Below are positions 1,520 through 13,007 of a stretch of 64,000 nucleotides of DNA, in pieces. Source of the stretch: Chryseolinea lacunae (GTDB lineage: Bacteria > Bacteroidota > Bacteroidia > Cytophagales > Cyclobacteriaceae); contig NZ_JAERRB010000002.1 in NCBI RefSeq assembly GCF_016735595.1, forward strand, positions 1 through 64,000, written 5' to 3'. The position numbers were made by a program, and so were the translations under genes. The notes below the pieces were generated by a model. That model was not told where the DNA came from. It made no database searches and worked only from the letters and a program-made list of their open reading frames with translations. Numbering within the stretch: the stretch's first letter is position 1; the number at the start of each line of letters is the position of its first letter.

Positions 1520-3697
1520 TCAATGTTTTTTAACAAGTCGTTTTACGAGGCTGAATTCACTGCATTTCGCCTCCAGGTTGTATAGTCCAGTATTGGCCTC
1601 CGGGATTGCAAACGTTAGCACCTGTACACCAGCTTCAAGATAGGCGTCGAACAAGATTTCGCGATTTCCGCCGTAGATGTCTGAGATTGTAATTTGAACG
1701 TTTTGAGCCTTGCTGAGATTAACTTGTACATTGTACTTGCCGTTCGTGGGGTTCGGGTAAACTGATAGTTGTTCTACCAATTTGGATGCTTCTTGGTATT
1801 TGGCATGCAGCGTTGTGGAGTCGATGATATAAGGTTTGTATTGCTCGTAAATCGAATTGTACTGCGCTCTAATTTTTGCTTCCAGGTTGGCGTTCACTTG
1901 TTTGGTAAGTTCTTCTGCGCTAGGCGGCGTATACGGCCGCACAATCTCACGTCCTGCTGATGGGGTGGTGGTGTTACATGCTGTGAGGGGCCCGTTGAAG
2001 ATTCGAACTGTTGAACCGCTTGCTATCTTAGAGCCAGGTTTAAGCACCACAGATTTGTTGGCTGCAAGCTCAACCGCCGAGGCTGTCACTATTCCAGTAA
2101 GTTCGAGCGATTCATAGGCCCAATATTTTCCACCGATGCTGATGTTCCCGAGCGTCTTGTTCATCGAGTTTTTGTAGGCTGGCTCGTTAGATCCTCGCGA
2201 CAGCATATAAATGTTGTATAGGAGCATATAATCCAGCCCGTTGAATTTTCCAGATGTCTCTCCAAGATTTTTATAGTCTATGTAGCCGTCGGCGCTTTGA
2301 GGTCGTTCCCAGCGGCTGACGCCTCGCCAGCCGTTCAGCCCAACATCGTTTACATCGGACGCAGGACGATGATGCGGTCCCTCACATGGTGCGCCGGTTA
2401 TAATGTGTGCAAAATAGTCCGACCCAATGGTTGTAGAGTTATCATTCAAATATTCATTCAGCAAGGCATAAACTTCTTGATGTTGTTTTAAACCGTAAGA
2501 TGTCAGGAAATTATCGGTGACATTTGAAAATTTCACAGATGGAGGATCACCTATGTCGGGCAGGGGACCGATTGGCGGAAAGGAAATCTTCAGCCCCGGC
2601 AAATCAACGTCAAACTCCCAAAAAATCAATCCTGGTATGAGGGTTTTTCTCTTCTTAGGCGAAATGGCGTATTGCCAAGAGTTCCCGACTGCAGCATAGG
2701 TCATAATCAGAGCAGCCTGAAAATCTTGCTTTTTGAAGTCGTAAATCAACGACATGATTGGCGGTCCAGCTAAAGGATCACACAACTCGTACCACCGTTC
2801 TTTAGAGAGTGGAGGCAAGGCGGTTGAATAATTTTCCCCGGTTATTTTTTCTGCAGCCGCAACAAGTCCGTATGAGTTCCACTCAGTGAAGATGTTGTCA
2901 CCATTTTCAAACATTTCTCCGTTTGCCAATTTACCAAACCATCCGTGATTCTCGTACCATTTGGTTATTCTGTTAGTGTAGGCCTGAGCCTTTGCCGAAA
3001 AGTCATATCCTCCGTAACTATCGCTGCCGAGGCATTTCTTGACAAGGGCAAACCCCATAAATAAATCAGCGATCTGGTCTTGCGTCATATAAATGTTGCT
3101 TTTGGCCGTGTTGGGTTCAATCTTCTCTTCATAGTGATGGTTATAAACTGAATTTATGCGAAAGCTGCCGTCACCTGAATAGCGGGCGACCCAATCGGGG
3201 CGAATTCGTTTCAAAAATTCCTTACTTACATCATCTCGAACGAACGTACCATTAAGATCACCAGGTTCGCAGCCAGATCCCCAATGAGGATAATACAAAT
3301 AGTCAGCCTTTTGATCCAGTCGTTCGTACGCTTTCATGGCATAGTATAGCTCGCGCAAGGTGTTTCCCGTCGCTTGACCGTTGCGTTTAAGGAGTTGATA
3401 TTCGGTCGCCAAAACACCAATATAGTAGCCTAGATACGATGTTGCGTCTGCCCAAGACAGGTCAACCTTCTCACGATTCTCAGTATTAGTCATGTCTACT
3501 GTTTCGGCTGGCAGGCTGTATCCAGTGGCGACGTTACAATTAAGCGGATTTTCTTCGCCCCGCACCAAGAACTCATCGACAAGACGGTATCGGTAGTACC
3601 AATATCGATTCTGGTCTTGCCAACTGGTCAGTTGAGCGAAGGTTTCTAGCGACAGCAAGCATGCGAGCATCGCTAAAACGGTTTTAACTTTTATCAT
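1520..3697 (-). CDS. T9SS type A sorting-domain-containing secreted protein
   Basis: 725 residues. Residues 1-22 form a signal peptide ending TFAQ. The last 80 residues (from about 646, VYPNPTNG) match the type A C-terminal sorting domain that sends cargo through the type IX secretion system for release or surface attachment. Before it, at about 529-573, lies a segment with the LKPGSKIASGS pattern of the Bacteroidota 3-coathanger stack domain. The 500-residue N-terminal part is rich in Trp and Tyr and predicted helical, with repeated helix pairs that suggest an alpha/alpha barrel. I do not recognise the family and see no catalytic signature. It is the first gene of a two-gene operon with 679-1497, 22 nt apart. 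Substrate and function are unknown; cell-surface location is well supported. Confidence 0.85.
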   Translation of the reverse strand: MIKVKTVLAMLACLLSLETFAQLTSWQDQNRYWYYRYRLVDEFLVRGEENPLNCNVATGYSLPAETVDMTNTENREKVDLSWADATSYLGYYIGVLATEYQLLKRNGQATGNTLRELYYAMKAYERLDQKADYLYYPHWGSGCEPGDLNGTFVRDDVSKEFLKRIRPDWVARYSGDGSFRINSVYNHHYEEKIEPNTAKSNIYMTQDQIADLFMGFALVKKCLGSDSYGGYDFSAKAQAYTNRITKWYENHGWFGKLANGEMFENGDNIFTEWNSYGLVAAAEKITGENYSTALPPLSKERWYELCDPLAGPPIMSLIYDFKKQDFQAALIMTYAAVGNSWQYAISPKKRKTLIPGLIFWEFDVDLPGLKISFPPIGPLPDIGDPPSVKFSNVTDNFLTSYGLKQHQEVYALLNEYLNDNSTTIGSDYFAHIITGAPCEGPHHRPASDVNDVGLNGWRGVSRWERPQSADGYIDYKNLGETSGKFNGLDYMLLYNIYMLSRGSNEPAYKNSMNKTLGNISIGGKYWAYESLELTGIVTASAVELAANKSVVLKPGSKIASGSTVRIFNGPLTACNTTTPSAGREIVRPYTPPSAEELTKQVNANLEAKIRAQYNSIYEQYKPYIIDSTTLHAKYQEASKLVEQLSVYPNPTNGKYNVQVNLSKAQNVQITISDIYGGNREILFDAYLEAGVQVLTFAIPEANTGLYNLEAKCSEFSLVKRLVKKH

Positions 3698-4193: not shown

Positions 4194-4941
4194 ATGATGG
4201 AGGAACGCCTGGGGCGGATCTTTTGCGGCGAGCACGGAATAAGCACTGCTACACTTTTCAATTGAAAAGCAAAATATGGCGGACTTGAGGCGAGCCAACT
4301 AAAACGCATTAAAGAGCTTGAAAGAAATGATGTCAGTATTCAGCGTGGTTCTTTGATGATCTCATCGAAAAAAAAGCTTTAACGACTGGCGAGGAAAGAC
4401 AAGTTATGCTTTTTCGGCAAGCCTTAAGGACAAAGTTCTCATTTACGGTCGCAACTTTTGACCACCGAATCTCAGATTGTGATGTGTTGACAAAATGCAT
4501 TTTTTTGAACCGTAGGCACTATGGTAATATCATAGGTGGATACTCGGTCCGCCACAAATTCTTTCTCTCGTAAAGTGCTGTAAATCCAAGTAATAGTAAT
4601 CGGTTCAGAGCCCTCCTCTTCACTTATTAAAAATTTTGATTTTTAATAAGTCCTGAAGGAAAAGGTTCGAACTACCGACCCTCCAGTCTACTGCCCTGAT
4701 TTTATACAAGGATCAAGATGGAAGAAATACGGACATCTTGAGTTGAAATTTATTCAGCCAGCAAAGCCAAATTGAGCGCTTCAACAGAACCTATCGCGAT
4801 GAAGTCCTAGGTGCTTACTTGTTCGATGACTTACATCAGGTTAGATATGAGAACAGAGAAGTTTATCTGAACACAACAATGTTCGACCTTAGATAACTTT
4901 AGGCCACGGGCGTTCCTGTTGAAATGTGGAAGCCCCCAGGC
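4194..4941 (+). pseudogene. IS3-family transposase remnant (OrfA and OrfB fragments)
   Basis: Fragments in different frames match the IS3-family OrfA/OrfB pair. OrfA: GEHGISTATLFN from about 4230, a one-base loss at the expected WKSK, then KYGGLEASQLKRIKELE from 4272. A piece reading DDLIEKK near 4355 is the OrfA end in another frame. OrfB: PDFI near 4695 (the catalytic-core GPEF region), LKFIQPAKP ending at 4769, then after a deletion and frame change IERFNRTYRDEVLGAYLF from 4771. NNVRP and PVEMWKP shortly after complete the usual C-terminal order. Most of the OrfB N-terminal half is missing and there are several stops and shifts, so it is inactive. Terminal inverted repeats were not identified. 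Confidence 0.8.
4623..4650. repeat. perfect 11-bp AT-rich hairpin inside the IS remnant
   Basis: CTTATTAAAAA (4623-4633) and TTTTTAATAAG (4640-4650) pair perfectly around TTTTGA. The flanks TTCA (4619-4622) and TGAA (4653-4656) can lengthen it. It lies between the OrfA and OrfB fragments of the IS3 remnant, where intact elements have coding sequence, so it arrived or formed after decay. It could act as a bidirectional terminator. Confidence 0.5.
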
Positions 4942-5199: not shown

Positions 5200-8184
5200 A
5201 TGATCGATAAAAAAATCACCATCCTTATTGGGAAAGCCATAAGGGAAGGAAAATATCTGAATATTACCTACAAAAACAGAAGTGGTGAGGTCACGCCATT
5301 TTGGATAAGCGTGTACGATATTACTGCTCGGGGAGAACTACGTGGGAACATATTCAATGTCACGAAGGACAACCCTATATTGGACGGTAAAATATTTATA
5401 TCGGAAATCCAGTCTGCTGAAATCCTTAAGTTCTCGCACTATGACGTTCCGGAAAAACTTATATCAAAACTGGACCATGATGATAGCTTGCTGATTTATG
5501 ATTTCTATCGGTATGATAACAATATTCTGGACTATTACCTGGAATGCTATAAAGCAAACAGAGATCCTTTTCTGCACAAAGCCCATTTAATTGAAGGCTT
5601 GGATTTACCGGAATTGGTGAAGACAACCCCCTATTCACTAACCGATAAACAGCAAAGGCAGATCATTCAGGAAATCTACAGCAACGATTATAAATCATTC
5701 CATGATTATGAATTGGCCCTATGCGAGTTCTCTCTTGATCTGATGTCAAGAGGCAAATTTGTAATTGCTTTCAGAAAGCTGACGTTTGATCCTGTTCGTA
5801 AAACCCTTCGTCTGGCAAGCAAAACGCAATTCAATCCGAACTTTTACATTCAGGGAGTAAGACACTCGCTGTCGTACTACACAGATTTAAGTCCGGCTGA
5901 TTTTGAAACGCTGTATGCCAGGGATAAAGCTGAGACTATTGAAATGGTGAGAAGTAGTTTTAAAACAGGCGAGCTACCAAACACACGACCTGAGGTGGTC
6001 GTTTTAGGATACAATCAAATCGATATTGCCGGGATCTATGATAACATTAATGAAGACCACCAGAACAATGAAGTGCAAATTCCCATAAAAGCATTTTTTC
6101 AAAACCTGTCGCTGCTGGACAGAAAGAATAGAAAAGAGCCACACATCGTGCTGTATGATAAGCATGTGAATATCGATCAGCTTCGCACGGTTTACAATGC
6201 ATTAAAATACCCGATCACGTACGTGCAAGGGCCACCGGGCACGGGCAAAACACAAACGCTTCTTAATATTATCGTGAATTGCCTCACCAACGGCAAAACG
6301 TTGTTGATCTCATCCAATAACAATGTGCCCTTGGATGGGATCAAAGATAAATTGGACTTAGGGAAGTATCGTGATAAAAATATTTTGTTCCCCGTAGTCA
6401 GGCTGGGTAATGTGGAATACATCGCGCAGGCATTAAAAACAATCAGGGCGTTGTATGCCTTTGAAACGAAAGATGTACCCAAGGAGGAACTGCTTTTTAA
6501 CTTAAAAGAAAAATCGAAGGAGAATAACAAGTTACTACTGGGTAAGCTCAAGCAATACGAAGATAGGTTAGACTTAGCTCAAAACATCGAATTCGTAAAC
6601 AGCTTATTGGCGAAAGAAAGAAACCATCTGCTGGAAAAGGAGAAGGACGTACTGGAAGAGAAACTTGGTCAGATACCGGAGATCAATAATGACGATTTGA
6701 ATAACATCTATGAAGTAATAAAGGGAAATCACCAATTGCTTCAGTTTTTTTATTTCGAATCACTACGTTGTGTAAAACGCCTGAGAACGAAGGATTACCA
6801 GGAGCTTATTGAAATCCTGGAACTTGAAGACGAGTTTGACCAAATAAAAGAATTTAATAGGTGGATTGCGGACGACGAGAATCTGGAAAAGTTCACACGG
6901 GTATTCCCCATCATCCTCACGACTAATATATCCAGTCGCAAACTGGGTAGAAAGTTTAAGTTTGATCTGCTGGCTATCGATGAAGCCGGCCAGTGTGATG
7001 TAGCCACCAGCCTTATCCCCATTTCCAAGTGTAAAAACATGGTGTTAATAGGTGACACCAACCAACTAAAACCGATTGTTCTTTTTGAAGAAACCAGAAA
7101 CGAGGAACTGATGAAACAGTTCGCGGTTGGTGAAGCGTATGACTACTACCAGAATTCAATTCTTTCAACGTATAAGAGAATAGATAATATTTCTCGGGAT
7201 ATTTTATTGAGCTATCATTATCGCTGTGGTAAAAAGATCATTAGTTATTCAAACATGCGGTTTTATGAGAATAAGTTGAATCTTTCGATGCTGAGTAACA
7301 TCGGTGAGGTGCAGCTTATCAATGTGAATAATGTAAACCATAAACTGAAGAACTCTACCCTGGAAGAGGCACAGGAAATTGTAAATCACATAAGGATTAA
7401 CAGGCTATCCGACGTTTTCATTATCACCCCATTCAGAAACCAGGAAGAAGTTTTAAATCATTATCTGCAGGCGGCAAAAGAGAAGGGTGAAATTGATCCC
7501 GCGATAAGTTGTGGAACAATTCATAAAGTCCAGGGTCAGGAAAACAAAACTATAATCATATCAACATCGATTTCGGGAAATACAACGCTCCGCACATACG
7601 ATTGGGTGAAGAACAATAGTCAGTTGATTAATGTTGGTGTTACCCGGGCACAGGAAAAACTTGTGGTGGTTACAGACAAAAAGGCTATAGATATTTTATC
7701 CAGGAAGGATGATGACTTATATGCACTAATTGAATATGTTGAAAAACATGGAGCCACCCAGATTTCACAAAGTGTGGTAAATAGGTTTACCATTGGGTTC
7801 TCGCAAAATTCAATATTCGAGGACGAGTTCTATAAAACCATGAGCCACTATTGTACAGTGCAGGGAACCCGATTCGAAAGGAACGTAAAATTAATCGATC
7901 TGTTTCCGGAGGAGATCAATAATTCAGCATTAAATAAACGAGAGTTTGATGGAGTCATCTATGTGGGTAAGGTGCCTCAGATCGTATTTGAGATCAATGG
8001 TGCCGAGCACTATCACGATAGAAAGCGAATGGACTCTGATAAGCTTAAAACGCAACTCCTGAACAGCAAAAACCTGAAATTGATTTTTGTTCCGAATCAA
8101 TACGTTAAGCACTACGAATTTTTACGCGAATTGATCAATAAAATAAGAGGTGGCGTGTATCAAAAAACCTTGTTTGACATCTAA
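5200..8184 (+). CDS. SF1 (Upf1/Dna2-like) helicase fused to PD-(D/E)XK-like nuclease; putative defence protein
   Basis: 994 residues. Residues 8-75 resemble a WYL-type small beta domain (AIREGKYLNITYKNRSG, then a conserved-looking RI/EI strand), a weak match. Helicase motifs follow in order: Walker A GPPGTGKT at 344-351, Walker B DEAG at 594-597, motif III GDTNQL at 618-623, motif V region GTIHKVQGQE at 772-781 and motif VI VGVTRA at 812-817. This is the Upf1/Dna2-like SF1 layout with a 240-residue helical insert between motifs I and II. The C-terminus (about 860-994) has D917, E931-x-N933 and D947-K948, spaced as in DUF2726/Vsr-like PD-(D/E)XK nucleases. The gene stands alone beside a dead IS element in AT-rich DNA and has no operon partner. 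Helicase-nuclease fusions of this type (for example Nhi) act against phage; a defence role here is inference. A DNA-repair role is the alternative. Confidence 0.85.
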   Translation: MIDKKITILIGKAIREGKYLNITYKNRSGEVTPFWISVYDITARGELRGNIFNVTKDNPILDGKIFISEIQSAEILKFSHYDVPEKLISKLDHDDSLLIYDFYRYDNNILDYYLECYKANRDPFLHKAHLIEGLDLPELVKTTPYSLTDKQQRQIIQEIYSNDYKSFHDYELALCEFSLDLMSRGKFVIAFRKLTFDPVRKTLRLASKTQFNPNFYIQGVRHSLSYYTDLSPADFETLYARDKAETIEMVRSSFKTGELPNTRPEVVVLGYNQIDIAGIYDNINEDHQNNEVQIPIKAFFQNLSLLDRKNRKEPHIVLYDKHVNIDQLRTVYNALKYPITYVQGPPGTGKTQTLLNIIVNCLTNGKTLLISSNNNVPLDGIKDKLDLGKYRDKNILFPVVRLGNVEYIAQALKTIRALYAFETKDVPKEELLFNLKEKSKENNKLLLGKLKQYEDRLDLAQNIEFVNSLLAKERNHLLEKEKDVLEEKLGQIPEINNDDLNNIYEVIKGNHQLLQFFYFESLRCVKRLRTKDYQELIEILELEDEFDQIKEFNRWIADDENLEKFTRVFPIILTTNISSRKLGRKFKFDLLAIDEAGQCDVATSLIPISKCKNMVLIGDTNQLKPIVLFEETRNEELMKQFAVGEAYDYYQNSILSTYKRIDNISRDILLSYHYRCGKKIISYSNMRFYENKLNLSMLSNIGEVQLINVNNVNHKLKNSTLEEAQEIVNHIRINRLSDVFIITPFRNQEEVLNHYLQAAKEKGEIDPAISCGTIHKVQGQENKTIIISTSISGNTTLRTYDWVKNNSQLINVGVTRAQEKLVVVTDKKAIDILSRKDDDLYALIEYVEKHGATQISQSVVNRFTIGFSQNSIFEDEFYKTMSHYCTVQGTRFERNVKLIDLFPEEINNSALNKREFDGVIYVGKVPQIVFEINGAEHYHDRKRMDSDKLKTQLLNSKNLKLIFVPNQYVKHYEFLRELINKIRGGVYQKTLFDI

Positions 8185-8372: not shown

Positions 8373-8469
8373 TTAACTGAGTGGAATCAATGAGGATATT
8401 TACTAGAGCGGGTTGGGCAGATAAACGCGCTGATTGAATGAGTTCCTATGTTTAATCCTATCAATCTTT

Positions 8470-9048
8470 ATGTTTGAAATCATCGCAGAAACAGCTGCAG
8501 AAGTAGTGGTCGAAGTTCTCTTCAGAATTCCTGTCATATTGTATAGATGGATTACAGGCAAAGACGGCGAACGCATCAACGACTATAAAACAGACCGGAA
8601 AAGGTTTATTCAATTTGAAGGAATGAAGAAGCGTATTTTGGTTGAGGAACGCGACATCGCCCTTGTTAAATCCAAGATTTCTGAAACACTAGGGGAGCTT
8701 GCCGAAAGCCTGGTCATCGACGACTTTCAATTTCAAACCACAGATCAAGGAACGATCATTCATGCCCCCAGGTCAATATCATTTTTTACGTTCCATTTTT
8801 TAATTCAAGCGTTGGGCCGGCGGGACATCGTGGCGATAGGTCTTGTCGAGTCCACGCGGTTTGCCTATTCTGCTTACAACGATCCAAATTCGGTGAACGT
8901 GATCGGACAGACGTACATGGGAAACCGGTTTTTTATTTCCCTGGTCGAAGATTATTCAAAAAAGCAATTTCTCAGAGTGAACAATAGAATAAAAACGAAC
9001 CCTGCATATAAGGTGCGTGCGTTGAAAAATGAATTGAGGCAGATATAA
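8470..9048 (+). CDS. hypothetical protein with hydrophobic N-terminus
   Basis: 192 residues from the Met at 8470; an upstream in-frame start at 8434 would add 12 hydrophobic residues. The first 25 residues (MFEIIAETAAEVVVEVLF and following) form a hydrophobic, probably amphipathic or membrane-associated helix. A charged cytosolic domain follows, with KDGERINDYKTDRKRF and, later, an alternating alpha/beta pattern. I do not recognise a family and see no catalytic motif. It is monocistronic: it has its own promoter at 8342-8372, lies 286 nt after the helicase gene, and is followed by a hairpin at 9126-9154. Being next to the helicase-nuclease may be chance. Membrane association is moderately supported, function unknown. 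Confidence 0.6.
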   Translation: MFEIIAETAAEVVVEVLFRIPVILYRWITGKDGERINDYKTDRKRFIQFEGMKKRILVEERDIALVKSKISETLGELAESLVIDDFQFQTTDQGTIIHAPRSISFFTFHFLIQALGRRDIVAIGLVESTRFAYSAYNDPNSVNVIGQTYMGNRFFISLVEDYSKKQFLRVNNRIKTNPAYKVRALKNELRQI

Positions 9049-9431: not shown

Positions 9432-12400
9432 ATGATGAAATGTTTACACACGGTGCCTGTACACTTGCCGGTTAAGGAACAACTCATTCCTCTTCTGTTC
9501 ACCGCCTTGTTTTCGGTGGGCCTATTGTCAGCTTCTGCGGGTGGTAATGCGCACGGCGTCCGGAAGAATCTTTGGGGCGACAACGTTGCGGCATTGTCCG
9601 GAGTCAAGCTGCACTCGCTTCCTGCTATGGCCGTTGCGAGTGCCGCGGTTAGCAAGATCATGCAGCAAGCGGTTACCGGAAAGGTTGTGGATGAAAACGG
9701 AGTTGCATTGCCGGGAGCTTCGATTTTGATTAAGGGATCGACCCGGGGCACGGCCGCAGATGCTGGAGGGGCGTATACCCTCACCGTAAATCCTGACGAT
9801 GTGCTGGTGTTTTCGTTTGTTGGTTTTGAATCGCAGGAAGTTCTGGTGGGGAGTCAGACCGTGGTGAACGTTACGCTGAAAGGCTTCACGGCCTTGGAGG
9901 AAGTGGTGGTGACCGGCTATGGCGATGTTTCCAAGCGAACGTATACAGGCGCCGCGCAAAGTCTGGCCATGGAAGATGTGCACGTGAAAGGGCTTGGCGA
10001 CGTTTCTCAGATGCTGCAAGGCCGTGCCGCCGGTGTTAACATACAAAACGTGTCGGGCACGTTTGGTGCAGGTCCGAAAATCACCATTCGCGGTGCGTCG
10101 TCCATCACCGGCGATGGCAAACCGTTGTGGGTGGTTGACGGTGTGGTGCAGGAAGATCTGGTGAATCTGTCGCTGAGCGACCTGGTATCGGGCAACACAA
10201 GTACCCTCATCGGGTCGTCGGTGGCCGGTCTTAACCCGAACGATATTGAAAGCTTTGAGATATTGAAGGACGCTTCGGCCACCGCGTTGTATGGCTCGCG
10301 GTCGCTGAATGGTGTCATTGTTATCAAGACAAAACGCGGACGTCGCGATGCCCCGCTGTCGGTGAGTTATTCGGGCGAGTTCACCACCCGTCATGTGCCC
10401 ACGTATGCTAACACCGACATCCTGGACTCGAAGGAAAATTTCGGCATCCTGAAAGAGTTGGAAAACAAGGGCCTGCTCGACATCACAACCATCAGCCAAA
10501 GCCGCTACAGTGGTGCATACGGCATCATGGCCAATCGCATCAACACGTTCGACCCGGAGACCGGCGCGTTCCAAGTAGCAAACAACCCACAAGCGCGAAA
10601 CCAGTTTCTCCAAACCTACGAGCAGGCAAACACGAACTGGTTCAACACCTTGTTCAAATCGTCAGTAACACAGAATCACACAATCAGCCTGTCGGGAGGT
10701 GGACACAACAATCAGTTTTATTCTTCCGTCGGATTATACAAAGATCCCGGTTGGACCATCGCCGACAAAGTGGACAGGTTATCGCTCAATCTCCGCAATA
10801 CTTTTTTTCTGAAGAGAGATGCGCAACTCACGGTGTCAATGCTCGGTTCCTATAGGCAGCAATTGGCGCCGGGATCGTTCAACCGAAATTCGGACGACGT
10901 ATATGGTTCACTCACGCGCGACTTCGACATCAATCCGTATTCGTATGGACTCAATACCAGCAGAACACTCCGGCCTTACGATGACAACGAAAACCTGGAG
11001 TATTATACTTTCAACTGGGCACCCTTTAATATTCTGAACGAAACAAAAAACAACTTCACCGATGTGCGCGTGCAGGACATAAAACTGCAAACCGATTTTC
11101 AGATACCGTTGTTCCACAATAAGGTGCAGTATGCTTTTGTTGGGGCGGTTCGGTATGCAAACAGTGTGAGCGAACATCAGATCACCGAGGATAGCAATGT
11201 GGCGGGAGCGTACCGGGCCGACGACAACACGGTTATCCGCGACGCCAACATTTTTCTCTGGAAAGATCCGGACAATCCCACACGTCCGCCCGTGGTGGTG
11301 CTGCCCGAAGGAGGGCTTTATTTCAGGACCGAAAATTTTCTTCGAAACTATTATGTGAGAAACTCGCTCACGTTTAAGGAGACCTTTAATGCCGATCACG
11401 AGTTTGATGCATTTATCGGGCAGGAAATTCGGTTTGTGAATCGTGAAGAAACCGGATTCGAGGGCTATGGGCTCGACTATTCGGGTGGGAAAATTCCGAA
11501 CACCGATCCGAATATCATTTCCAAGGTGCTGGGAGAACAAGGGTCCTATTTCACGCTGGGAAGTCCCCGAAACCCCGGCGACAGGGCCGGCACAACCAGT
11601 GAACGAACGGCCAGTTTTTTCTCGCGCCTTACCTATGGATTCAGAGGCAAATATTTCTTTTCCTTCACGGGAAATCTCAACGCCTCCAACACGCAAGGAC
11701 TGCGGAATGGAAAAGTGCGCTGGACGCCGACCTATACTTTTGGTGCAAAATGGAACGCGAAGGAAGAAAGTTTCTTCCGGGACTATGGCTGGCTAACAAC
11801 CCTGAATCTTCGTGCATCGTATGGCCTCACCGCCATCGCGGGCACGGCCACGAACACGTTGGCCGTGTTGCGCAGCAACATTACACAAGGACGCTGGCGC
11901 ATTAATGACCGCGAATCAGCTATCACAATCGAAGACCTGCGCAACAACGACCTCACCTACGAGAAACAATTTGAAACCAACATCGGCCTGGATCTAGGGC
12001 TCGCGAAAAACCGGATTAACGTGACGGCCGACATCTATCAGCGAAAAGGATTTGATCTTTTTGACTACGTGCGCACATCGGCAGTAGGGGGACAAGCCGT
12101 CAAATTCATCAACAACGCCGACATGACGACCCGCGGCGCTGAAGTTTCCCTGCGCACCAAAAACATAAGCTCGGGAGCGTTCACGTGGACGTCGACATTA
12201 AATTTCTCTGCCTTCCGGCAACGTGTCACGCAAATTGAAAGCAAGCCCACATTGTTGGATGCTATTGACGACACAGGCGCGAGCTTTATTGGCTATCCGA
12301 GAAACTCCCTGTTCTCCATTCAATTTGCAGGGCTCACCGACAAAGGACTTCCATCGTATACAATTCCGGACGAAGACAAAACGTTTGGTGTCGATTTTCA

Positions 12401-13007
12401 GGACACAGGCGTTACGCTAACCACGCCTGAGGGACAGGCGAAAGGTCTGTTGTCTTATCTCAAATATGAGGGGCCGACAGACGCGAACAAGACGATCAGC
12501 CTGCAAAACACTTTCCACTACAAAAACTGGTCGCTGGGCTTTTTCATCACGGCATCGGGAGGCAATAAGGTTCGGTTACCAGCCATGTTTGGTGCTAGTT
12601 CTTTCACAGACCTGACGGTGTATTCCAAAAGTTTCATCAACCGCTGGGCGTTGGCCGGCGACGAGAAGGTGACGTCGTTTCCCGTCATTCCCGATTCCAG
12701 GTTAACGCAAGAGAACGGCCTGACCGAACTTGCCAGGGCCTACAACGCCTACAACTTTTCGACACAGCGCGTGGCCGATGGCTCGTATGTGCGACTGCGC
12801 ACGGTGAATCTGAGCTACACACTTTCCAAAGAACTGCTGACCAAACTGTATGTGAAGAGCATGGTCATTAGCGCGCTGGTGCAAAACCCGTGGTTGATTT
12901 ATGCGGACAAAAAACTGAACGGCGTCGATCCCGAATTCTACAACTCCGGAGGCGTGGCCCAACCAATCACCCGACAGTATACTCTTTCTCTGAACCTCGG
13001 ACTTTAA
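9432..13007 (+). CDS. SusC/RagA-family TonB-linked outer membrane protein
   Basis: 1191 residues, normal for SusC. A hydrophobic export signal lies at about 15-38. A CarboxypepD_reg-like domain covers about 81-149 (VTGKVVDENGVALPGASI). Then come the SusC junction motif EEVVVTGYG (about 156-165) and the plug domain with LQGRAAGVNIQNVSG and LWVVDGV. The remainder is a 22-strand barrel ending in alternating residues (YTLSLNLGL). It is the outer-membrane channel that imports a large substrate, with SusD as lid and TonB-ExbBD supplying energy. It leads an operon: SusD starts 24 nt downstream, then a zinc metallohydrolase lipoprotein and a DUF4302 lipoprotein. No glycoside hydrolase or sigma/anti-sigma pair is adjacent, so the substrate cannot be read from context. 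A peptide or metal-bearing ligand is more likely than a polysaccharide. Confidence 0.95.
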   Translation: MMKCLHTVPVHLPVKEQLIPLLFTALFSVGLLSASAGGNAHGVRKNLWGDNVAALSGVKLHSLPAMAVASAAVSKIMQQAVTGKVVDENGVALPGASILIKGSTRGTAADAGGAYTLTVNPDDVLVFSFVGFESQEVLVGSQTVVNVTLKGFTALEEVVVTGYGDVSKRTYTGAAQSLAMEDVHVKGLGDVSQMLQGRAAGVNIQNVSGTFGAGPKITIRGASSITGDGKPLWVVDGVVQEDLVNLSLSDLVSGNTSTLIGSSVAGLNPNDIESFEILKDASATALYGSRSLNGVIVIKTKRGRRDAPLSVSYSGEFTTRHVPTYANTDILDSKENFGILKELENKGLLDITTISQSRYSGAYGIMANRINTFDPETGAFQVANNPQARNQFLQTYEQANTNWFNTLFKSSVTQNHTISLSGGGHNNQFYSSVGLYKDPGWTIADKVDRLSLNLRNTFFLKRDAQLTVSMLGSYRQQLAPGSFNRNSDDVYGSLTRDFDINPYSYGLNTSRTLRPYDDNENLEYYTFNWAPFNILNETKNNFTDVRVQDIKLQTDFQIPLFHNKVQYAFVGAVRYANSVSEHQITEDSNVAGAYRADDNTVIRDANIFLWKDPDNPTRPPVVVLPEGGLYFRTENFLRNYYVRNSLTFKETFNADHEFDAFIGQEIRFVNREETGFEGYGLDYSGGKIPNTDPNIISKVLGEQGSYFTLGSPRNPGDRAGTTSERTASFFSRLTYGFRGKYFFSFTGNLNASNTQGLRNGKVRWTPTYTFGAKWNAKEESFFRDYGWLTTLNLRASYGLTAIAGTATNTLAVLRSNITQGRWRINDRESAITIEDLRNNDLTYEKQFETNIGLDLGLAKNRINVTADIYQRKGFDLFDYVRTSAVGGQAVKFINNADMTTRGAEVSLRTKNISSGAFTWTSTLNFSAFRQRVTQIESKPTLLDAIDDTGASFIGYPRNSLFSIQFAGLTDKGLPSYTIPDEDKTFGVDFQDTGVTLTTPEGQAKGLLSYLKYEGPTDANKTISLQNTFHYKNWSLGFFITASGGNKVRLPAMFGASSFTDLTVYSKSFINRWALAGDEKVTSFPVIPDSRLTQENGLTELARAYNAYNFSTQRVADGSYVRLRTVNLSYTLSKELLTKLYVKSMVISALVQNPWLIYADKKLNGVDPEFYNSGGVAQPITRQYTLSLNLGL

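Follow-up and report, generated by a model that had tools for sequence, protein, structure and literature searches.

The anti-phage protein Hhe, which carries DUF4011 and consists of a single long helicase protein of the AAA_11/AAA_12 type, ends in a Vsr nuclease. Its profiles in NCBIfam (NF042953) and PADLOC are 1797 and 1911 positions long. In Type III-B CoCoNuTs the protein CnuH combines a UPF1-like SF1 helicase with a Vsr-like PD-(D/E)xK nuclease in one chain; it has a large helical insertion following its Walker A motif and an N-terminal wHTH, and is accompanied by homologues of McrB and McrC (CnuB and CnuC) and a coiled-coil protein, and the authors of the description predict RNA as the target (PMC11090510). 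Mokosh type II likewise places helicase and nuclease activities in one system, with a PLD-like domain, and Nhi-like proteins carry a NERD domain (both PMC10952713); Nhi of S. epidermidis is a single-gene nuclease-helicase directed against phages (PMC12904381). Superfamily-I helicases are listed among the partner domains of WYL domains, and the available part of that survey makes no mention of a Vsr nuclease at the opposite end of such fusions (PMC4012209). The gene of Chryseolinea lacunae considered here is related to these defences and is probably a one-gene defence against viruses, in a combination of domains that is new as far as found: no description of a three-part architecture of WYL-like, UPF1-like and Vsr-type domains was found in the openly accessible literature.

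The window is the whole stretch of 64,000 nucleotides that was analysed (contig NZ_JAERRB010000002.1, positions 1 to 64,000), and the gene occupies positions 5200..8184 of its forward strand, on which the domains and motifs of the gene and the upstream integrase remnant also read, in an open reading frame of 994 codons with no interruption; by Pfam and predicted structure the 994-residue product joins a WYL-like fold, a UPF1-like SF1 helicase and a Vsr/DUF2726-type nuclease. The middle of the protein is, on motifs and modelled fold, a UPF1/Dna2-type SF1 helicase with intact motifs, for which 5'-3' translocation on single strands is predicted. The first RecA-like domain (AAA_11, residues 323-628, 6166..7083, Pfam 5e-29) holds Walker A GPPGTGKT (residues 344-351, 6229..6252), the Walker B or motif II sequence DEAG (594-597, 6979..6990) and motif III GDTNQL (618-623, 7051..7068), together with a helical insertion at about residues 405-568 of the predicted structure, and the second (AAA_12, residues 714-827, 7339..7680, Pfam 1e-17) includes VGVTRA at 812-817; all four motifs lie where the original prediction had placed them. 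Ahead of the motor the model shows a beta-rich region (residues ~126-300, 5575..6099), which from the domain order we take to occupy the position of the UPF1 1B/OB barrel. Both RecA-like domains are present in 40 of 40 family members, the helicase motifs are conserved across the 61 aligned members, the window protein included, and this conservation extends to Bacilli members of as little as 32% identity and to a phage or prophage copy of 31%. The best PDB matches of the motor fold in Foldseek include SETX, IGHMBP2, UPF1 and Dna2 (E 1e-17 to 1e-13, with a TM to the query of only 0.28-0.32), and viral helicases and replicases are among the 50 matches listed from a viral structure library. The full-length model is of moderate quality (pLDDT 76.6, pTM 0.54), and inter-domain contacts are not established by such a model.

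The family comparisons rest on two alignments, one of 40 rows that comprises the window protein and 39 of 45 loci (L015, L017, L030, L036, L046 and L050 were dropped as interrupted or cut), and one of 61 rows that adds the phage or prophage copy (L094) and 20 of 40 matches from the Bacilli class. These 20 were taken mostly from the upper part of the match list, with room for flanks required, and the larger set thus excludes the most divergent Bacilli-class matches and those lacking the N-terminal part. Across both alignments the C-terminal region (residues 868-983, 7801..8148) keeps D917, E931, G934, E936, H937, D947 and K950 invariant (61 of 61 rows), in the pattern D917 / E931-x-N/D-G-x-E-H937 / D947 / K950. 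A nuclease-like set of D917, E931, N933 and K948 had been proposed; all four residues are present, but the lysine was misassigned, K948 being lysine in 30 of 61 rows, and H937 and D947 were missed. The catalytic residues are probably among the invariant D, E, H and K positions, any individual assignment being conjectural. DUF2726 matches 34 of 40 C-termini at E<=0.1 (best 1.4e-6), the window C-terminus alone reaching 0.005 and 17.0 bits, below the 24.7-bit cut-off, and the sole PDB profile match of the region is the DNA homing endonuclease I-Bth0305I (3r3p, E 0.0076). RAP also matches 8 of 40 C-termini weakly, with a best value of 0.0024. When the C-terminus was aligned by profile to three Vsr proteins, no signal emerged: the score was 13.6, below the maximum of 50 decoys (21.4). 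Conserved residues, DUF2726 matches and predicted structure together support residues ~868-983 as a predicted Vsr/DUF2726-type nuclease, so that the PD-(D/E)XK superfamily originally proposed stands, in the EDxHD-like kind and with a different lysine.

At the other end, residues 1-82 (5200..5445) are modelled as a helix and five strands, and the fold of residues 1-80 is supported by structure comparison as that of a WYL domain, a Sm-like SH3 barrel. The model of residues 1-120 has a pLDDT of 85, Y24 is invariant in 61 of 61 aligned members, and Foldseek ranks 1-13 are all chains of three WYL proteins, BrxR, DriD and PafBC (E 0.003-0.02, none <=0.001; prob 0.99-1.00; TM to query 0.43-0.51), with CapW at rank 24. 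The fold thus bears out the WYL-like N-terminus that had been proposed, while the sequence evidence for it is weak. Pfam gives no WYL match (PF13280) to the window protein at E<=1, nor is WYL among the 25 of 32 families listed for the 40 members, and a PDB profile search with the N-terminus returned four matches (E 0.034 to 0.66) with no WYL protein named. Profile alignment of the 40-row N-terminus with 20 WYL proteins scored 2.6, below the best of 60 decoys (11.4), and its probability against two WYL subsets, run without decoys, was at most 5%; the same method recovered a split-WYL positive control at 98%. The 61-row N-terminus aligned in register with the two subsets at scores of 21.8 and 17.7, against decoy maxima of 17.9 and 16.5 (100 decoys each), and scored 24.2 with all 20 WYL proteins, without decoys, at probabilities of 4-40%; this hints at homology with WYL domains. 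By the titles of their entries, structures of DriD and CapW with single-stranded DNA exist. In these two proteins the sensing of single-stranded DNA by the WYL domain serves transcription.

Set beside the described systems, the window protein shares with CnuH both the helicase-Vsr fusion and the helical insertion after Walker A, but it has the WYL-like helix and five strands in place of the wHTH, and its family lacks a constant partner; membership of Type III-B CoCoNuTs is rejected, as neither the N-terminal wHTH nor the operon of NxD-type McrB (CnuB) and CnuC was found. Hhe is rejected because DUF4011 is missing at E<=1 in Pfam and NF042953 reaches 69.6 bits, over the helicase core, against a cut-off of 2000 bits; at 994 residues the window protein is also far shorter than the Hhe profiles of 1797 and 1911 positions. 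The best PADLOC match is MkoC of Mokosh type II (6e-41, best stretch residues 560-865), but the similarity is to its helicase: the nuclease is of the Vsr/DUF2726 type, no PLD family is matched in Pfam at E<=1, and membership is again rejected. The PADLOC candidate PDC-S37, itself a candidate only, matches the helicase, and in L094 the match runs from residue 587 to 978 on profile positions 933-1318 of 1550, covering the nuclease end; in the best stretches the first ~930 profile positions are unmatched. Nhi, which the original prediction had named as an example of anti-phage helicase-nuclease fusions, is not the closest relative; no NERD domain is matched in Pfam at E<=1, and Nhi-like membership is rejected as well.

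The gene is AT-rich and its distribution is patchy. It was found in 2 of 58 relatives, its own genome apart, in 1 of 394 other Bacteroidia, and in 40 of the 395 genomes that sample one Bacilli host's class, that host counted; C. lacunae itself has no second copy, other matches there being partial and 24-40% identical. Identity to the window protein is 61–89% in Bacteroidota and 32–41% in Bacilli, where six of the 40 class matches start past residue 160 and may thus lack the WYL-like part or have another version of it. A housekeeping core gene is rejected by this distribution, which bears out the expected accessory, horizontally spread gene. The expected insertion-sequence flank is also real: an integrase-core remnant (rve_3) that is not part of the enzyme lies upstream at 4756..4893 (Pfam 6e-6; 26.3 bits, slightly below the 26.5-bit cut-off) and is read as IS3-type and as a sign of mobile DNA. 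Elsewhere in the flanks the piece at 4266-4379 and the reading frame at 679-1536 have no Pfam match, the frame at 1520-3697 carries a Por secretion tail, and that at 8434-9048 matches nothing in Pfam, NCBIfam or PADLOC. Of the 5 other genomes of the genus, 1 has a relative of the upstream flank gene, at 52% identity. The description of the gene as lone fits the near neighbours examined, with no defence gene among those scanned in the window.

Defence genes, those of restriction among them, are enriched around the Bacteroidota copies. Around 20 of the 45 loci, picked for the length of their contigs, the 165 genes in 232 kb gave 85 and 68 PADLOC family matches at 1e-15, and control regions elsewhere on the same contigs gave 21 and 16 from 212 genes in 240 kb (153 against 37 in total); these are counts of family matches rather than genes, a single gene being able to match many families, the families behind them are listed as the first 25 of 85 and the first 25 of 68, and the mad3 and RtcR models match both near homologues and in controls. 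In 4 of 21 genomes a gene like hsdR lies no more than 10 kb away (two above the family cut-off and two below), with about 0.15 expected (32 rows, 4.2 Mb; 0.16 when the 34 rows that reach 60 bits are used). The closest relative, L006 (89%), stands 62 bp downstream of HsdS, KAP, unknown, McrB-like and McrC genes on the same strand. In L026 and L162, too, McrB-like and McrC genes immediately precede the family gene on its own strand, while in L034 they follow it on the opposite strand; MNTAD occurs in three of these McrB-like proteins (L006, L026 and L034), which we take to be the canonical McrB form and not the NxD form of CoCoNuTs, and the motif pattern was not matched in that of L162. No recurrent restriction, McrBC, Vsr or large-helicase neighbour accompanies 33 of 47 distinct loci, many of which are short, and no constant partner gene appears in the Bacteroidota and Bacilli loci surveyed. 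A BLAST search of 20 Bacilli loci with 12 neighbour proteins, 8 of them from defence systems and 4 structural proteins of phages, found only McrB and McrC, at one locus; the predicted association with defence islands is supported for the Bacteroidota copies, and this limited search gave little sign of it in Bacilli. On the contractile-tail phage or prophage contig L094 the family gene, 31% identical, stands behind the tail module, one unassigned reading frame after the baseplate wedge gene.

Because of the fold assignments, the conserved motor and nuclease residues, the patchiness, the defence neighbours in Bacteroidota and the position by the L094 tail module, the gene is probably a single-gene anti-phage, or more broadly anti-invader, helicase-nuclease. 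The original prediction of a single-gene defence candidate is thereby supported, with the corrections given above, and defence is the function that we infer. In the mechanism proposed, the WYL-like barrel would bind a signal in the form of nucleic acid, for which single-stranded DNA laid bare in phage replication or damage is the likeliest candidate, the motor would load there and move by ATP hydrolysis, and the Vsr-like domain would nick or cut the nucleic acid along which it is carried, destroying the invader genome or, if cutting is unspecific, the host cell too.

The same protein could defend through RNA, with single-stranded RNA as the track of the UPF1-like motor and with phage or host transcripts cut by the Vsr-like domain in abortive infection, as proposed for CoCoNuTs. 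Many of the best structural matches of the motor are RNA helicases (SETX, IGHMBP2, UPF1 and Aquarius), but Dna2 is among them too; Vsr acts on DNA, as does the homing endonuclease matched by the C-terminus, and there are structures of WYL proteins with single-stranded DNA. The Type III-B helicase-Vsr fusion is predicted to act on RNA (PMC11090510), but its type of McrB partner is absent here. The C-termini also have the weak RAP matches, and the RAP protein FASTKD4 is described as Vsr-like and as an RNA binder that does not cleave (PMC11879112). DNA appears somewhat the likelier target, and RNA-directed defence is unlikely, if the best placed of the alternatives. An accessory DNA-repair or replication-restart helicase-nuclease of the Dna2 kind, borne on mobile DNA and without an immune role, is improbable: Dna2 and RecD-type similarity is seen in the helicase, prophages and islands carry repair genes too, and the limited BLAST test found little defence context around Bacilli copies, but the patchy distribution, the lack of a constant neighbour of any kind, the surplus of defence-model matches around Bacteroidota copies and the copy behind phage tail genes speak against it. 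That McrBC-type (Type IV) restriction uses the protein as an additional subunit beside McrB and McrC, in the manner of CnuH, is very improbable despite the four adjoining loci, since McrB-like genes occur in just 3 of 47 distinct loci and, where BLAST was run with the L006 proteins as sole queries, in 1 of 20 Bacilli loci, three of those found have the MNTAD form and none lies beside the window gene, and an obligate McrBC partner is rejected.

Returning to single-gene defence, we suggest tentatively, and by analogy, that the WYL barrel might be the direct on-switch of an effector, sensing single-stranded DNA and gating a UPF1-type motor with its Vsr nuclease, in a one-gene immune family common to Bacteroidota, Bacilli and phages. 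If the defence reading is true, the gene would be a compact system with sensor, motor and cutter in a single chain, in a family that roughly one in ten sampled genomes of one Bacilli host's class carry, and what WYL domains sense in immunity would become testable with one purified protein. The gene would further connect the UPF1-like helicases of CoCoNuTs, Hhe and Mokosh as one branch whose end domains have been swapped.

The open reading frame at 5200-8184 on the forward strand translates without interruption into a 994-residue protein, and every motif quoted in the original prediction is present in that translation at the residue named for it. The motor is covered by the Pfam families AAA_11 (residues 323-628, 5e-29) and AAA_12 (residues 714-827, 1e-17), and the predicted whole-protein model (pLDDT 76.6, pTM 0.54) best matches PDB structures of SETX, IGHMBP2, UPF1, Aquarius, Sen1 and Dna2. 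Partial NCBIfam matches to an IGHMBP2-family helicase, ProA, the PLuB helicase-like protein, Hhe and RecD types all lie far under the cut-offs of those families. Among PADLOC models the top match is MkoC (6e-41), followed by MkoA, PDC-S37 and Hhe, with the best-matching stretches in the helicase part.

The C-terminus carries a match to DUF2726 (residues 914-981; 0.052) that falls below the Pfam cut-off. When the C-terminal 139 residues of 40 members are searched at E<=0.1, DUF2726 is matched by 34, RAP by eight, DUF559 by five and MTES_1575 by one, and a few unrelated families are each matched by 1 to 3. A PDB profile search with this region (E<=10) returned a single match (0.0076), an entry titled mobile intron protein, which is the EDxHD homing endonuclease I-Bth0305I (named in PMC3943268 and PMC11879112). 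The active sites of EDxHD enzymes have been called PD-(D/E)xK-like (PMC3943268), and I-Bth0305I has been compared with Vsr, in whose active site Asp51 is paired with His69 (PMC11879112). Across an alignment of 61 members, with identity to the window protein reaching down to about 31%, D917, E931, G934, E936, H937, D947 and K950 are invariant. The nuclease-like set first proposed, D917/E931-x-N933/K948, stands in its two acidic residues, but position 933 is N in 43 members and D in 16, and position 948 is K in only 30. On this pattern the predicted site is read as Vsr-like rather than canonical D-ExK.

The N-terminus had been called WYL-like, and the predicted fold agrees while the sequence support is weak. 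A model of residues 1-120 alone (pLDDT 85) comprises a helix, five strands and further helices; its first 13 structural matches in the PDB are chains of the WYL proteins BrxR, DriD and PafBC, and behind them come Lsm and further WYL chains, among them CapW in a structure with single-stranded DNA. As the E-values of these WYL matches are 0.003-0.02, with none at 0.001 or better, the assignment is a statement on fold. A separate 76-residue reading frame at L008:479-709, in the locus of a relative, matches residues 1-75 of the family, with 72% identity to the window protein, and the full copy there follows about 1.9 kb downstream; the short frame is either what is left of a duplicate or a WYL-like module standing on its own.

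A scan of 84,980 species genomes, biased to near relatives since it was built on exact query peptides, gave 45 loci, by their titles 43 in Bacteroidota (61-89% identity, one a 163-residue fragment) and two in Bacilli at 38%; 39 of them were aligned with the window protein. In profile searches, 40 of 395 genomes from the class of one Bacilli host (itself counted) match at 1e-100 or better, as do 2 of 58 relatives of the window's genome at 1e-100 and 1 of 394 Bacteroidia at 1e-60, that genome itself excluded in both, rates not strictly comparable because thresholds and queries differ. Six of the 40 (G818, G660, G589, G582, G513 and G707) start past residue 160, so in some proteins the helicase and nuclease may be joined to a different N-terminal domain or to none. 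Each of 28 genomes searched holds one match at 1e-40. IMG/VR contains 33 loci encoding relatives, with near full-length cover in one (L094; 31%, residues 10-979), where major head, tail sheath, baseplate hub and baseplate wedge genes and one unassigned frame precede the homologue; by these genes L094 is a phage or prophage of the contractile-tail kind, and the homologue sits behind its tail module. Neither the 142 plasmid records nor the eight deposited phage records with a match include one spanning 80% of the query, and every match is below 60% identity.

The gene has 39.5% G+C against 51.3% in window 9433-64000, and in all 18 loci for which both figures are available the gene is poorer in G+C than the control region. 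In the tree the window protein clusters with L006 and L007 (100/100), and orders are partly mixed, with Chitinophaga beside Cytophagales (94/74) and Flavobacteriaceae at two places, several of these forks being weakly supported. Two isolate copies (L015, L017) have an internal stop. Upstream of the gene lies an integrase-core remnant (4756-4893), itself preceded by a frame with stops at 4266-4379 that by eye resembles an IS3 OrfA piece and has no Pfam match. The window copy is flanked by a gene whose product bears a Por secretion tail (Pfam; 1520-3697, reverse strand) and, downstream, by a 204-residue, TTG-initiated frame (8434-9048) that Pfam, NCBIfam and PADLOC all leave unmatched, past which a large frame (9432-13007) resembles a SusC-type porin by eye.

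No neighbour gene is constant across the relatives' loci. At 20 homologue loci (165 neighbour genes of at least 100 residues, 232 kb), PADLOC returned 85 and 68 matches at 1e-15, against 21 and 16 in 20 control regions taken elsewhere on these contigs (212 genes, 240 kb), figures that count family matches and not genes. Among the best 25 of the 85 and of the 68 are Type I and IIG restriction, a Type IV enzyme, AbiEi/AbiEii, IetA, DrmC and PDC-S41; the mad3 and RtcR models listed there also match in controls. Control matches are mainly MTase_II models (14 of 21 in one list, one member each), PDC-M16A, RtcR, mad2/mad3, RecD-like, PDC-S48 and PDC-S68. HsdR/HsdM/HsdS, McrBC, Vsr or large-helicase neighbours recur in 15 of 49 loci; dropping L051 and L053, which by their coordinates duplicate L011 and L037, leaves 14 of 47. 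Pfam confirms HsdS and McrC, TIGR00348 confirms HsdR, and some other names were given by eye. Four of 21 genomes (about 0.15 expected) have an hsdR-like gene no more than 10 kb from the homologue, two above the family cut-off and two below. At L006:4377-11522 and L026:472-8061 in Bacteroidota, whose McrB-like proteins carry MNTAD, and at L162:7998-14800 in Bacilli, the homologue is immediately preceded by McrB-like and McrC genes of its own strand; the full order in L006, the closest relative, is HsdS, KAP NTPase, an unknown, McrB-like and McrC, with the homologue 62 bp on. At 20 Bacilli loci, BLAST with 12 named neighbour proteins found McrB and McrC only, in one locus, and by this measure the defence context is thinner than around Bacteroidota copies. 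A Schlafen-type helicase (Schlafen-group-3, PF09848) of about 620 residues lies roughly 0.5-6 kb from the homologue in three Bacilli loci (L145, L150, L158) and is possibly a second nuclease-helicase; PF09848 also matches in 11 of 14 control genomes.

The motor-plus-cutter layout is like that of Hachiman, described with the helicase as sensor and the nuclease as effector (PMC12278908), and of Nhi, thought to answer phage single-strand-binding proteins (PMC12904381). The nearest described architecture is CnuH of Type III-B CoCoNuT, a UPF1-like helicase fused with a Vsr-like nuclease (PMC11090510), although the N-terminus and the McrB-type partners of CnuH have no counterpart here; the McrB-like/McrC order in L006, L026 and L162 recalls CoCoNuT, but the MNTAD of the first two differs. 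Taken together, the findings are best fitted by a mobile single-gene defence. A defence role is likely, held with slightly lower confidence because the Bacilli context is thin and in some copies the N-terminus is not matched. The WYL-like barrel would be the natural candidate for the sensor, given that WYL proteins have been solved with single-stranded DNA and that combinations of WYL with SF1 helicases were noted in 2014 (PMC4012209).
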